Of a stretch of DNA of 64,000 bases, positions 19,041 through 52,077 are shown in pieces. How positions within the stretch are numbered: the first letter of the stretch is position 1; each line of letters begins with the position of its first letter. Origin of the DNA: Phoenicibacter congonensis (GTDB lineage Bacteria; Actinomycetota; Coriobacteriia; Coriobacteriales; Eggerthellaceae). A program made the translations under genes and the position numbers. The stretch covers positions 1,240,001 through 1,304,000 of the forward strand of contig NZ_LT821227.1 in NCBI RefSeq assembly GCF_900169485.1, written 5' to 3'. The notes under the pieces were generated by a model, which was not told the DNA's origin, did no database searches, and worked only from the letters and a program-made list of their open reading frames with translations.

Positions 19041-20348
19041 ATGGCTAAATACAAAGTAGTACACTACCTAAATCAGTTCTTCGCAGGCATTGGCGGAGAA
19101 GACAAAGCTGACTTCAAACCAGAAGTACAAGAAAAGGTAATCGGACCAGGAATGGCTCTTCAAGCTGGTCTTGGTGAAGACTTTGAAATTGTTGCAACAG
19201 TTATCTGCGGCGACAACTTCTTCGGCGAGAACCTTGACGAAGCAACAGACACAATTGTTGACATGGTTAAGCAATATGAACCAGACGTGTTCGTAGCTGG
19301 ACCTGCATTTAACGCTGGTCGTTATGGTGTTGCTTGCGGCACAATCTGCAAAGCTGTTGAAGAGCGTCTTGGTGTTCCAGTTCTTTCTGGTATGTACACA
19401 GAAAACCCTGGTGCTGACATGTTCAAACAGGACGTAATTCTCGTTGCTACTGGCGACAGCGCTGCAACAATGAGAAAAGCAGTTCCTAACTTTGTAACAC
19501 TCATCAAAAAGATGGCTACTGGCGAGGAAATCCTCGGACCAGACGAGGAAGGTTACCTCGAGCGTGGCATCCGTGTTAACTACTTCGCTGATGAGCGCGG
19601 TTCTGAGCGCGGAATTAAAATGCTCATCAAAAAGATGGCTGGTGAGCCATTCAAGACAGACCTTCCAATGCCTAAATTTGACCGCGTTGAGCCAGGCCCT
19701 GCAATCACCGACATGGCACATGCAACAATCGCTGTTGTAACATCAGGCGGCATTGTTCCTCTTGACAACCGTGACCACATTGAGTCATCAAACGCTACAA
19801 AGTTTGGTTGGTACACAATGGAAGGCATGGACTCCTTAAGCAAAGATGACTACATGACCATTCATGGTGGCTATGACCGTCAATTTGTTCTCGAGAATCC
19901 AAACCTTGTTGTTCCTCTTGACACACTTCGTCAAATGGAAAAAGATGGCCGCATTGGAAAACTCTATCCAATGTTTGCATCAACAACTGGCACTGGTACT
20001 GCTACAAACTCAGCTGCTAAGTTCGGCACTGACATTGGAGCGAAGCTCAAGGAAGACGGTGTAGACGGCGTAATTCTCACATCCACTTGAGGCACTTGCA
20101 CTCGTTGCGGTGCAACGATGGTAAAAGGAATTGAGGCTTACGGCATTCCTGTAGTTCACATTTGCACAGTTGTCCCAATTTCTAAGACAATCGGTGCTAA
20201 CAGAATCGTCCCTGCTATTGGTATCCCTTACCCATTAGGCGACCCAACCGAGGGCGAAGAAGAGTCAAGAAAGATTCGCGACGAACTCGTCGAGAAATGC
20301 CTTGAGGCTCTTGAAACACCTGTCACAGAACAGACAGTGTTTGAATAA
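19041..20348 (+). CDS. grdB: Glycine reductase component B gamma subunit, selenoprotein
   Basis: The frame runs 435 codons with one in-frame UGA at 20088-20090, codon 350. The flanking sequence, VILTST-U-GTCTRCGATMVKGI, is the GrdB active-site motif, and known GrdB proteins carry selenocysteine at this position. Reading UGA as stop would give a 349-residue fragment plus an orphan 76-residue frame, although both parts match one protein. The selenocysteine attacks the glycine-derived Schiff base to release ammonia. The best resemblance is to the glycine-specific GrdB rather than the sarcosine (GrdF) or betaine (GrdH) forms. The closing residues TEQTVFE are also typical. Confidence 0.96.
20088..20117 (+). 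promoter_or_regulatory. Selenocysteine UGA and SECIS-like hairpin of grdB
   Basis: After the UGA at 20088-20090, CGTTGC at 20103-20108 pairs perfectly with GCAACG at 20112-20117 around a GGT loop (20109-20111). The loop begins 18 bases after the UGA, within the range known for bacterial SECIS elements, and the GGU apical bases resemble the SelB-binding loop of enterobacterial fdhF. The selenium machinery genes are not in the window. Confidence 0.8.
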
Positions 20349-48364: not shown

Positions 48365-48419
48365 AAACCTATTTCACCTCCAATCTTTTAATTAGCAAGC
48401 TAAGTTCTGCCGTTAGCTG

Positions 48420-48602
48420 GGCACAAAAAAACCCTTGCTCTGCGAAAACCGCAAAAAGACAAGGGTAAATCAATTCATATGAATTTCATTAACCACCTCG
48501 GTAGGCTGATTCCTCAATTAAACCTTAACGGTACCGACTGTCTTAAGCAGCAGAACTATTCTGTTATCAAACGCGTTCTCTCAAACGCGACTAGAAATTA
48601 TA
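48420..48602 (-). ncRNA. Ribosomal protein L10 leader with attenuator
   Basis: The minus-strand leader of rplJ carries the L10-leader motif (CCUACCGAGGUGG near 48510-48497) and then an attenuator: ACCCTTG-type arms (CAAGGGT at 48460-48466 and ACCCTTG at 48431-48437 on the plus strand) followed by seven T on the minus strand. When L10 is in excess it binds its leader and favours termination. A TATAAT -10 box (complement of 48597-48602) marks the promoter. Confidence 0.85.
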
Positions 48603-48662
48603 CATCAAAAAAAGTGGCGCTTTTAAACAAAAAGCAAATGAAAAGCGATGAAGCTCTTGTTG

Positions 48663-48691
48663 TTGTTTTGTGACACTGTGCAGTCTATAAA
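48663..48691 (+). promoter_or_regulatory. Candidate promoter of element A
   Basis: TTGTTT at 48663-48668 and TATAAA at 48686-48691 are 17 bases apart. The surrounding 21-mer ending in TTTTGTGACACT (48657-48677) is repeated with 19 of 21 identities at 48924-48944, where TTCTTT and TATTTT sit at the same spacing before element B. Confidence 0.45.
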
Positions 48692-48697
48692 GTCCAT

Positions 48698-48890
48698 AAG
48701 TTTTAAAAAATTCGCCTATTTTTAAAACCCAGGGCAAAATGACAAGAACCTTATATCTTTATCTAAGGTTTCTGATGGTTATTTAAAGGCCCGAAGCGAT
48801 GCCCCCAACCATCCAAATCTCCAGGCATCGCGAAATATGAATGGCGTCCTTCTTACCACCACCACCTTAAGGATGGACGCCTCATTCTTT
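48698..48890 (+). ncRNA. Structured RNA element A with (ACC)4 loop, candidate small RNA
   Basis: Three stems can form. AACCTTA/TAAGGTT (48747-48753, 48764-48770) is followed by GCGATGCC/GGCATCGC (48796-48803, 48824-48831) around a C-rich 20-base loop, then GGCGTCC/GGACGCC (48843-48849, 48875-48881) extended inward and capped by ACCACCACCACC. A T-rich TCATTCTTTT follows, as in a terminator. The middle hairpin contains AAATCTCCAGGCAT, identical in element C. The C-rich loops could pair with Shine-Dalgarno G runs. The strand is inferred; antisense peptide readings exist (see findings). Confidence 0.5.
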
Positions 48891-48964
48891 TAAAAAATCT
48901 TTTTAAAAATTGAATTCTAAATAATGTTGTTCTTTTGTGACACTCAGATTGCTATTTTGTTTTA

Positions 48965-49049
48965 TACAAGGAAATTACAGAAACAGGTGGTGGAATTTGA
49001 ACTAGAAAAAAGAACGAACGCTGATAATAAATCAGCGTTTTTAATTTTT
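48965..49049 (+). ncRNA. Short unit B with GGTGGTGG and terminator
   Basis: Downstream of a promoter-like repeat, AGGTGGTGG (48985-48993) is a nine-base perfect complement of CCACCACCT in the loop of element A. It is followed by a strong terminator: AACGCTGAT (49017-49025) and ATCAGCGTT (49031-49039) around AATAA, then TTTTTAATTTTT. It may be a small RNA that titrates A and C. A GTG-started 24-codon frame runs through the terminator and is unlikely to be coding. Confidence 0.4.
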
Positions 49050-49139
49050 AAAAGTCTCAAATAAAGCCACCAAAAAGATTAATTGAAGAGACGTGAGATA
49101 AGTTTCTTATTGTTTTGCTTAATCAATAGCTAAAGCAAA

Positions 49140-49281
49140 TGGGGTCGCGCTGATAGCGAAAAGAATAAATGAGACCCCAGGCAATGCCAATAACCTCGTC
49201 TAAATCTCCAGGCATTGTAAACATGATAAAAAAGGAGCTCTCCCTACCACCACCACCACCAAATAGGGAAGCTCCTCTTTT
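49140..49281 (+). ncRNA. Structured RNA element C with (ACC)5 loop, candidate small RNA
   Basis: TGGGGTC/GACCCCA (49140-49146, 49173-49179) encloses a small CGCT/AGCG hairpin. CAATGCC/GGCATTG (49182-49188, 49211-49217) follows with the 14-base segment shared with element A, and then GGAGCT-TCCCTA/TAGGGA-AGCTCC (49234-49246, 49264-49275) closes an (ACC)5 loop and ends in TCTTTTG. The pair A-T in the middle stem replaces G-C of element A. The last hairpin also has a T-tract on the minus strand (TTTTTT), so it may double as the terminator of the minus-strand operon. Confidence 0.5.
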
Positions 49282-49330
49282 GTTAATTTTATTTGAGCTT
49301 AAATTAATCTTTAACGAAAACTAGCAATAA

Positions 49331-50227
49331 CTAGAAATTAAGCGACAAATTTGCCGCAGTCAATTCAGCCCACGAGTATTGGCTCATATACTCTCCCCAA
49401 AATCCATCTCGCTCCGACTCGTCGCTAGCCAAAAAATTGTAATAGTCACAGTCAACATAATTGACGTCGACGGCAATGCTATTGTAACTTTTGATAATGC
49501 ACTCTCTTGCACCAACCGACTCAAAGGTCTTCATCAATGAAGAAATTATTGACTGAAGGTAACTTTGCCTTGTTGAATCATATGGCTTATCTTCAAATAA
49601 AACCGCAGCAAGTTCACGAATTGTGCAAGACGAACCACGCCGGTCAATCAAGTAGGCAAAAGCCTCTTTTGCAAGTCCCCTGCTAAATTTCAAAGGCTGT
49701 CCGTTGTAAAAAACTTCAAAATTGCCGAAACAACGAACTTCCAGTTTTTTTGCAGGCGCGTTTGACCCCAGCAATCTTTTGCAAACTCCAGTTTTTGGAT
49801 CACAGCTTCCATCTATGAATGCAACATTGCATTGCTCACGCTCTGCACACAAGGCACACAAATTTTTAACGGAATAGCGCAAGTTCTTTAATTCACATTT
49901 GATTTTTTCTACTGTGACAGGTTTTGTTACATAGCCAGAAGCTCGCAAATTCATAGCATCTGTTGCATAGTGTCCAAATCCTGTAACAAATATGATGTTC
50001 AAAAAAGGAAGTGTCGCCTTTAGCTTTTCAGCTAATTCTACGCCAGTCATCCCTCTCATTTCAACGTCAAGAAAAGCGATGTCAACTACTCCCCCATTAG
50101 CCACATATGCAAGAGCTTCTTTTGGCTTGCAAAAAGAATGCACATTGGCAGTATCCACAGCCGCTTTTACCGAATCCTCTAAAAGCTCAAGAGCAAGCAT
50201 CTCATCATCAACACAGAGAATTTCCAT
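49331..50227 (-). CDS. Response regulator with SARP-type DNA-binding domain
   Basis: The 298-residue protein has a receiver domain (1-118) with Asp7, Asp8, phosphoacceptor Asp54 (IAFLDVEMRG), Thr82 and Lys102. A linker holds cysteines 124, 127, 133, 142 and 149. The C-terminal part from about 163 (LEVRCFGNFEVFYNGQPLKF, KEAFAYLIDRRGSSCTIREL) is a winged-helix domain of the BTAD/SARP kind. It would activate or repress genes when phosphorylated by the kinase gene upstream, whose stop it overlaps in TAATG. Targets are unknown; the structured RNA region follows it. Confidence 0.88.
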   Translation of the reverse strand: MEILCVDDEMLALELLEDSVKAAVDTANVHSFCKPKEALAYVANGGVVDIAFLDVEMRGMTGVELAEKLKATLPFLNIIFVTGFGHYATDAMNLRASGYVTKPVTVEKIKCELKNLRYSVKNLCALCAEREQCNVAFIDGSCDPKTGVCKRLLGSNAPAKKLEVRCFGNFEVFYNGQPLKFSRGLAKEAFAYLIDRRGSSCTIRELAAVLFEDKPYDSTRQSYLQSIISSLMKTFESVGARECIIKSYNSIAVDVNYVDCDYYNFLASDESERDGFWGEYMSQYSWAELTAANLSLNF

Positions 50228-52077
50228 TAATTAAACTCCTCTTCCAAGCCGATGGGCAAGCGAATTGTAACAGTGCATCCTTTTCCATGAGAGCTATCAA
50301 TTGAAAATTCTGCTCCAGGGAAGGCTCCAATTCGCTTTCGCGAGTTCTCAATCCCAAAGTGAGTCTTCCCAACTTCTGGACTTTTTTTGGGATTAAAACC
50401 AGGTCCGTTATCCTTAATTTTTACAACCGCAAAATTTCCTTCTTTGATTGCTGAAAGAATAACTGTGCCTCCTTCCTCAAGCGCACATGCACCATAACGA
50501 ACGGCGTTTTCCACCATTGCTTGTATGCAGAGCGGTGGAACATAGAAATCATCAAAAGATATTACTTCTTTGAAAGCAAGGTCGTCGCCAAATCTCATCT
50601 TTTCAAGTGCCATGAAATGACGAATGTGCTCTAGCTCCTTTTTAAATGGAATTAGACGAGCCTGTGACAAAACGTCCATGTTTTCCCGCATATAATCAGC
50701 AAAAGTTAGGACTTGCGCTTTTGCCTGCTTTGGGTCTTTGTCGCAAAGGCGGGCGATCGAAGCCAAAACGTTATACAAGAAATGTGGCTGTATTTGGCTC
50801 AACATAACTTGTGTTCGAGCTTGCACTAAATTCGCACGCAAGCGTTCAGCCTTTTCCCCTTGAAGCAATTTTTCGTTTGCCTCAACAATGAGCAGGCGCA
50901 GTTGTGATATGCCAAACACCAAAAGTCCAATTTCAAACAAAATGACCCAGAACGTTCCTGATATCACATAATGAACCATCTCAAATAAAGCCATGATTGA
51001 CACACCACATGCGAAAGGAACGAAAAGAAGGTTCTCGCGCCAGTAACGACTTCTCATTTCAATTAAAACGAGCACAATGAGCACAATTATCCCAGCGATA
51101 GCTATTGGAGCAGCAATTTGGACGCACTCTTTTAAACCAAAGACTCCCGCTGCAGCTAAAATCAAAGAAAAGCCAGCACACACTATCAAGGCTCCAAAGA
51201 TTAAAGAACCCACAGTTTGTGATTTGGAGCTCGTTAGAAGTGAGCGCAAATAATCAACAATAGAGACAACAATTAGCAATTGAGAAGCATAGTCGATCCA
51301 ATTGACAACCTGAACTTCAGAAAAAATCAAACAAGTGTAGTGATAATCAATCAAGCAACAGATTGCGCCTGCGATGAGAAGAGTCCCAGTCGAAAAATAA
51401 TGCGGCGAAATCTCTTTTTTTGTTGCCCTCAAAAGAAAAAGTGTGAATGCATAAAATAATCCAATTAGCAAAATTATTAGACCTAAAATAATGTTTACAG
51501 AATGCTTAACAAGCTGCTTCTGTAACAAATTTATGCCGTCTTCTGAGTAGAGACTAGAGCAAAAATCGTCTAAATCTTGGGCAGCGTTGGGCCCCGAAAC
51601 AGTTACTTCAATGGAAGTGTGTGGTTCGCACAAAAAACGATTCCATCCATAGCCATAGTAATGTTGAAGGCGTTTATGTTCTGAGGCATTTCTCTCAAAA
51701 ATTATGGAATCGTCTTCAAGATTTTTAATTGTTATGTTGTCTGCATTAGAGTAAAAATAAAGTTCATGAATTTCAATTTCAAGCACTTCAGCAGATAAAG
51801 TAATCCTTGAGTCACCATCTTTTACTAAAGGCCCTAAAAAATTCTCAAGATCACTGTGATTAGAAACTTCATTCCACTCACCGTCGTCAACTTTCACAGC
51901 TTTCTTTTGAAAGAATTCCTCTACTGGAGTTGAACGATCACGAATGTCGCCATTGTGAACAAGGCTTTTATTTGTAATCGAAAAAAACCCAAGATAAATC
52001 GTGACGACACTAATTGCCGCGATTGCAAAGAGTCGCCACGCAAAATTCCCTTTATTTTCTAAAAACCTTTTTTTCAA
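50227..52077 (-). CDS. LytS/7TMR-DISM-type sensor histidine kinase
   Basis: The 616-residue protein has an N-terminal membrane anchor, an extracellular domain (about 35-180), seven membrane segments (about 190-400) and a cytoplasmic PF06580-type kinase: SQIQPHFLYNVLASIARLCD with phosphoacceptor His432, then AMVENAVRYG (N box) and KDNGPGFN (G box). The start is TTG behind GAGGTG. The extracellular domain resembles the 7TMR-DISM sensory part, suggesting a small ligand or carbohydrate. It is cotranscribed with the response regulator and two upstream genes. Confidence 0.87.
   Translation of the reverse strand: MKKRFLENKGNFAWRLFAIAAISVVTIYLGFFSITNKSLVHNGDIRDRSTPVEEFFQKKAVKVDDGEWNEVSNHSDLENFLGPLVKDGDSRITLSAEVLEIEIHELYFYSNADNITIKNLEDDSIIFERNASEHKRLQHYYGYGWNRFLCEPHTSIEVTVSGPNAAQDLDDFCSSLYSEDGINLLQKQLVKHSVNIILGLIILLIGLFYAFTLFLLRATKKEISPHYFSTGTLLIAGAICCLIDYHYTCLIFSEVQVVNWIDYASQLLIVVSIVDYLRSLLTSSKSQTVGSLIFGALIVCAGFSLILAAAGVFGLKECVQIAAPIAIAGIIVLIVLVLIEMRSRYWRENLLFVPFACGVSIMALFEMVHYVISGTFWVILFEIGLLVFGISQLRLLIVEANEKLLQGEKAERLRANLVQARTQVMLSQIQPHFLYNVLASIARLCDKDPKQAKAQVLTFADYMRENMDVLSQARLIPFKKELEHIRHFMALEKMRFGDDLAFKEVISFDDFYVPPLCIQAMVENAVRYGACALEEGGTVILSAIKEGNFAVVKIKDNGPGFNPKKSPEVGKTHFGIENSRKRIGAFPGAEFSIDSSHGKGCTVTIRLPIGLEEEFN

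Follow-up and report, generated by a model that had tools for sequence, protein, structure and literature searches.

Two paralogous structured RNAs, A and C, are located on the + strand between the rplJ-rplL operon and a response regulator/histidine kinase pair (both on the - strand), and are very probably real regulatory RNAs, a reading that is well supported by their conserved place, their covariation and their conserved loops. A likely target of theirs is arcA, which codes for arginine deiminase and would be bound at its leader. A short terminated unit situated between A and C, B, carries a copy of the target site. The account as a whole, in which A and C are genus-specific trans-acting small RNAs (sRNAs) acting on arcA and B is their sponge, is one to which we give slightly less than even weight. 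Its basis in sequence is the structure and conservation of A and C, the complementarity of loop and leader in both genomes compared, and the site and terminator of B; from these we infer expression of the RNAs, regulation of arcA with its sign, and the sponge role of B. The window (the whole stretch of DNA analysed, 64,000 nucleotides) corresponds to G000:C1:1240001-1304000 in a genome of 1.45 Mb, and the comparison within the genus is with the one other genome available, G001. The features are as follows.

48417-48565, beside the rplJ-rplL operon (- strand): L10 leader (Rfam; L10 protein assigned by Pfam)
48658-48692, + strand: promoter-like region of A, with the repeat TGTTGTTGTTTTGTGACACT at 48658-48677 and a -10-like TATAAA at 48687-48692
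48699-48893, + strand: RNA A, 5' end inferred (folds, covariation, covariance-model match)
48796-48831, + strand: hairpin 2 of A (fold, covariation)
48843-48881, + strand: terminator hairpin of A (fold, covariation)
48859-48867, + strand: pairing loop of A, CCACCACCT, exact complement of the B site and of the arcA1 leader site
48925-48958, + strand: promoter-like region of B, with the repeat TGTTGTTCTTTTGTGACACT at 48925-48944 and a -10-like TGCTATTTT read by eye
48965-49049, + strand: unit B, candidate sponge RNA, 5' end inferred (terminator, fold z -4.15)
48985-48993, + strand: AGGTGGTGG in B, complementary to the A and C loops (sequence match)
49016-49049, + strand: terminator of B (10-pair stem, T-rich tail)
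49138-49278, + strand: RNA C, 5' end inferred (fold z -4.64, covariation, covariance-model match)
49141-49178, + strand: hairpin 1 of C (fold)
49181-49221, + strand: hairpin 2 of C (fold, covariation)
49234-49275, + strand: terminator hairpin of C (fold, covariation)
49247-49260, + strand: pairing loop of C, CCACCACCACCACC, which holds CCACCACC in three registers
49331-52077, - strand: response regulator/histidine kinase pair, adjoining C

Several features mark A and C as members of one RNA family. First, each ends in a terminator hairpin with a ACCACCACC loop, and G001 has a single ortholog at the syntenic position, flanked by the same neighbor genes. Second, A, C and the G001 copy have in common both the hairpin 2 loop TC[C/T]AAATCTCCA and the terminator-hairpin loop holding ACCACCACC, and the first hairpin is closed by GGGGTC/GACCCC in C and in the G001 RNA, with a weaker GGGC/GCCC counterpart in A. 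Third, two-sided base changes are seen among the three copies in 6 of the 22 pairs, with both modelled helices affected, and 95.2% of the cells in the alignment pair, compared with 41-53% after sliding the partner by 1 to 3 columns (the alignment is hand-made and N-padded, and the structure was derived from the same sequences, which favors the pairing score). Fourth, five G-U cells pair on the + strand only and one would pair on the - strand only, a balance that favors the + strand for A and C; the point made in the preliminary description, that the complementarity among A, B and C holds whichever strand is used, is trivially true. Finally, the list of open reading frames has none of at least 60 codons on the + strand over A or C, and a + strand frame of 64 codons stops at 48673, just upstream of A. 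As free-standing structured RNA genes that are conserved and have their own terminators, A and C have the properties by which sRNAs are recognized.

This family appears to be confined to the genus. The covariance model R1 matches A at 48796-48891 (75.1 bits) and C at 49181-49285 (92.3 bits), together with a weak reverse-strand match at 49224-49315 (25.5 bits) that overlaps C itself, and under strict filters, with which weak matches may be lost, it finds matches in 2 of 138 family genomes, both of this genus. A DNA search of 60 genomes, 23 of them with a match at E up to 1, yielded outside G000 and G001 just matches of 15 to 34 bases, and two of these that were inspected by eye fall in coding sequence. 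Near A, B and C the L10 leader is the only Rfam match at the gathering threshold, and no plausible Rfam match to A or C was found at E up to 5, so that assignment to a known RNA family was rejected. The model of 6C RNA, which is reportedly the subject of a study by Mai et al. (2019), has no match up to E 5 in 48570-49330. Elsewhere in the window, Rfam places SECIS_4, a selenocysteine insertion element, at 20091-20128 on the + strand (61.7 bits; cut-off 38). As to the neighborhood, the named relatives of the response regulator beside C are 38-48% identical to it, the best of them (48%) mainly in Clostridia-type genomes; its horizontal transfer is only a possibility, and the relatives closest to the source genome are perhaps missing from the comparison.

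The pairing loop of A is the exact nine-base complement of AGGTGGTGG in B, as originally described, and these two places are the sole matches to the 9-mer in the window when both strands are searched (0.18 matches expected). The complementarity of B to the loop of C, where CCACCACC lies in three registers, extends over eight bases, again in agreement with the earlier observation. Shuffling B with dinucleotide composition preserved gave the eight-base complement to the C loop 11 times in 5000 and the nine-base complement to the A loop just 2 times in 5000. Complementarity to the pairing region of an sRNA, nine bases to A and eight to C, is what characterizes a sponge or target mimic. The strong hairpin and T-tract at the end of B, and a promoter-like repeat in front of it that matches the one before A, had likewise been pointed out and are borne out: the repeat TGTTGTT[G/C]TTTTGTGACACT is identical at 19 of 20 positions between A and B, with no other place in the window scoring above 15 of 20. 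Use of TTTTGTGACACT as a regulator site throughout the genome is unsupported beyond A and B (13 sites when up to one mismatch is allowed; the control has 15); two further exact sites fall inside long reading frames, and the sequence was not found ahead of the RNA at the G001 locus. A peptide encoded by B was also considered and rejected, the 25-codon frame GTGGTGGAATTTGAA... running through the terminator and being without a well-spaced ribosome-binding site.

The strongest rival to a sponge is that A and C are real sRNAs and B is just the terminated 5' leader, or attenuator, of a transcript running into C, in which case AGGTGGTGG would act in cis or be there by chance. The promoter-like region of B resembles that of A while C is without such a repeat; the best candidate promoter of C is weak by eye, and a consensus promoter scan returned no + strand promoter in the A-B-C region, only - strand sites. 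The B terminator is, moreover, about 90 bases upstream of the first hairpin of C, and B is unconserved, being missing in G001. Set against this is the rarity of the nine-base complement among shuffles of B, and we consider such a leader somewhat unlikely; a sponge is the simplest use for a unit like B.

Across the genome AGGTGGTGG is present at 12 sites and its reversed control at 14, such that there is no over-representation. Besides the complement of A and the copy in B there are 10 sites. Seven of them fall within coding sequence; the other 3 are in the leader of arcA1, in that of a LuxR-type regulator and around the start of a DUF5714 gene. The shorter GGTGGTGG has 47 sites, 41 of them outside A, C and B; 39 of these 41 were classed (the remaining two are in the window), which placed 4 between genes or at a gene start. 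The gene arcA1, whose product falls just under the cut-off of TIGR01078 and above that of NF002381, is the first in a row of genes that includes those for ornithine carbamoyltransferase and carbamate kinase.

At the arcA1 site, complementarity to the RNA loop is kept in both of the two genomes compared, with a compensatory change. In G000 the leader site AGGTGGTGG (in longer context TCAGGTGGTGGATTTTAATATTCA) faces the A loop CCACCACCT, and in G001 the leader site AGCTGGTGG (longer context TTAGCTGGTGGATTTTATTATTCA) faces the loop CCACCAGCTA of the cognate RNA (longer context ACCACCAGCTAGG). A G-to-C change in the G001 leader is matched by a C-to-G change in the G001 loop, giving 10 contiguous Watson-Crick pairs. 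The predicted duplex of A with its own arcA1 leader is -17.7 kcal/mol and that of the G001 RNA with its own leader -21.8 kcal/mol; of the heterologous duplexes, the one between A and the G001 leader is -10.9 kcal/mol, and the one between the G001 RNA and the G000 leader, formed via a shifted register, is -17.0 kcal/mol. When the G001 leader was shuffled 5000 times, a procedure that ignores homology, 2 of the shuffled versions attained a 10-base match; an estimate by hand, given the retained TGGTGG core, puts the chance of the additional bases at 1 to 3%. As one event in two genomes, the apparent compensation is suggestive. The site was judged by eye to be missing from all 27 leaders that could be read automatically among the 28 arcA loci of other genera (L281-L308), genera in which the RNA is missing too. 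On the strength of these comparisons arcA is a likely target of base-pairing by A and C.

Two other explanations of the matches can be weighed here. If A and C were structured RNAs with another role, the matches in arcA and B could be coincidences of a loop that is a low-complexity CCA repeat; the 9-mer is no commoner genome-wide than its control, and the remaining loop complements sit at different genes in the two genomes. Coincidence would nonetheless have to account for a 10-base cognate match at the leader of an orthologous gene, compensatory change included, in a site that adjoins a conserved leader structure, and we find it quite improbable. More improbable still is that AGGTGGTGG is a DNA operator near the transcription starts of arcA1, luxR and B whose likeness to the RNA loop is incidental. 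All three sites come after -10-like sequences (by eye), and the luxR gene adjoining the second arcA codes for a DNA-binding protein; against this, the site and the RNA loop co-vary between species, the loop complement is at the end of an RNA gene, inside a structured hairpin, and the luxR copy of the site is lost in G001.

The place of the site within the arcA1 leader suggests how pairing by A or C could matter. The bases following it, GGATTTTA.TATTCA, pair with arcA1 codons 4 to 9 in both genomes (L253, L254), and the Shine-Dalgarno sequence and start codon therefore lie inside a predicted hairpin. The leaders fold only moderately better than their shuffles (z -2.3 and -1.5). Within codons 4-10, all six codons that specify the same residue in both genomes are identical, compared with 133 of 314 (42%) further along the gene, which points to a constraint at the level of RNA. 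The sRNA site covers the foot of the hairpin stem in both genomes, and blocking it raises the folding energy from -24.7 to -12.3 in G000 and from -16.7 to -8.3 in G001, with predicted access to the Shine-Dalgarno sequence unchanged. On these grounds activation by weakening of the hairpin is tentatively favored.

We set out the following scheme as a proposal. A and C would be two copies of a genus-specific trans-acting sRNA that presents a CCACCACC loop for pairing at the tip of its terminator hairpin. In the arcA leader the partner of the A loop would be AGGUGGUGG, situated at the foot of the hairpin within which the start codon and ribosome-binding site lie, and the pairing would weaken that hairpin and alter arcA translation, more probably upward, the direction being tentative. 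B would be a short RNA carrying a copy of the target site, and would titrate A (and C).

The evidence on B itself is divided. B and the arcA1 leader have CAGGTGGTGGA, of 11 bases, in common, and the duplex with A is predicted at -17.7 kcal/mol for either of them. Over 18 bases the two are identical at 15, the best in the window (the next has 13), but at least 15 identities are also attained by 17 of 300 permuted 18-mers, so that just the 11-base core of the likeness counts. The suggestion in the preliminary description, of a sponge or anti-sRNA encoded among its targets, is partly supported, since B has CAGGTGGTGGA in common with the leader of a likely mRNA target, which is to be expected of a target mimic. 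The loops nevertheless appear to serve an mRNA and not B: in G001 the RNA is present together with an arcA site that carries the compensating change, and B is missing. The loss of the match in relatives that retain A and C, which that description had named as a refutation, applies in part, the G001 locus having the RNA and being without B altogether. With the complements of the G001 loop itself set aside, the 3-kb G001 locus has two one-mismatch GGTGGTGG-like sites, the first in the L10 leader and the second in the rplL region. Present in one of the two genomes of the genus, B is, as judged from this comparison, a lineage-specific addition, and a role as sponge of A and C is possible, though we incline against it.

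There are further sites at which the loops could pair. A AGGTGGTGG site (L119, G000:C1:459903-459911) is in the leader of the LuxR-type membrane regulator, which is divergent from the second arginine deiminase gene; as a conserved target it was rejected, the site being present in G000 and missing in G001. Another (L126, G000:C1:997962-997970) is at the translation start region of the DUF5714 gene, which also resembles the selenoprotein family MbdU, below cut-off. The sequence TGGTGGTGGT (L194, G000:C1:807938-807945) is a 10-base complement of the C loop and follows a -10-like sequence about 200 bases ahead of a gene for a secreted-looking protein. In G001, GGTGGTGGTTA (L248, G001:C386:16968-16975) immediately precedes the start codon in a gene for a symporter of the GltP/DctA type and is an 11-base complement of the loop TAACCACCACC of the G001 RNA; this gene is a possible second target of that RNA. 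The hairpin 2 loop (48796-48831 and 49181-49221) is invariant across all three copies, and its complement TGGAGATTT is present 29 times in G000 (control 13) and 19 times in G001 (control 12), RNA genes counted in; when AAATCTCCA was considered as a second seed and 44 loci (L309-L352) were classed, no leader common to both genomes was found.

Related systems are known. The ArgX sRNA of Lactococcus lactis (PMC6586332) acts on the arginine deiminase operon, with base-pairing as the predicted means; its gene follows argR, and the pairing is predicted to occlude the arcC1 ribosome-binding site and so lower expression. A and C are like ArgX in being sRNAs with the arginine deiminase operon as candidate target, and differ in being two copies beside rplJ whose site, in the leader of arcA, is at a hairpin foot. 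The 6C RNA of Actinobacteria has C-rich hairpin loops and is reported to bind several mRNAs (PMC9569102); A and C are likewise non-coding with C-rich loops, but their loop differs as a CCA repeat in a terminator hairpin, and up to E 5 the Rfam 6C model does not match them. RosA of Bacillus subtilis (PMC8216469) is a sponge that pairs with and controls the metabolic sRNA RoxS, which shows that a sponge is used in a Gram-positive organism. Unlike RosA, which is tested by experiment, B is known from sequence alone, and it would sit between both of the sRNA copies that it bound, sharing a piece of their mRNA target. Our literature search found no sRNA work for Eggerthella, and none for Coriobacteriia among the matches listed. 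The mechanism is thus of a known kind, and the RNA family, the target and the layout look new within the databases and literature searched.

A fuller version of the proposal, which we hold to be rather doubtful, is a three-gene module of sRNA, sponge and sRNA that arose by duplication in one lineage. The twin CCACCACC-loop RNAs would govern the arginine deiminase operon, and their activity would be tuned by a decoy that had arisen between them, with its own copy of the arcA site and a promoter derived by duplication. If the account is true, these genomes would contain a new sRNA family for which a metabolic target can be named, along with a base-pair swap that has occurred naturally between two species, and the candidate sponge, being recent and absent in the sister species, would offer a before-and-after view of how a sponge originates.
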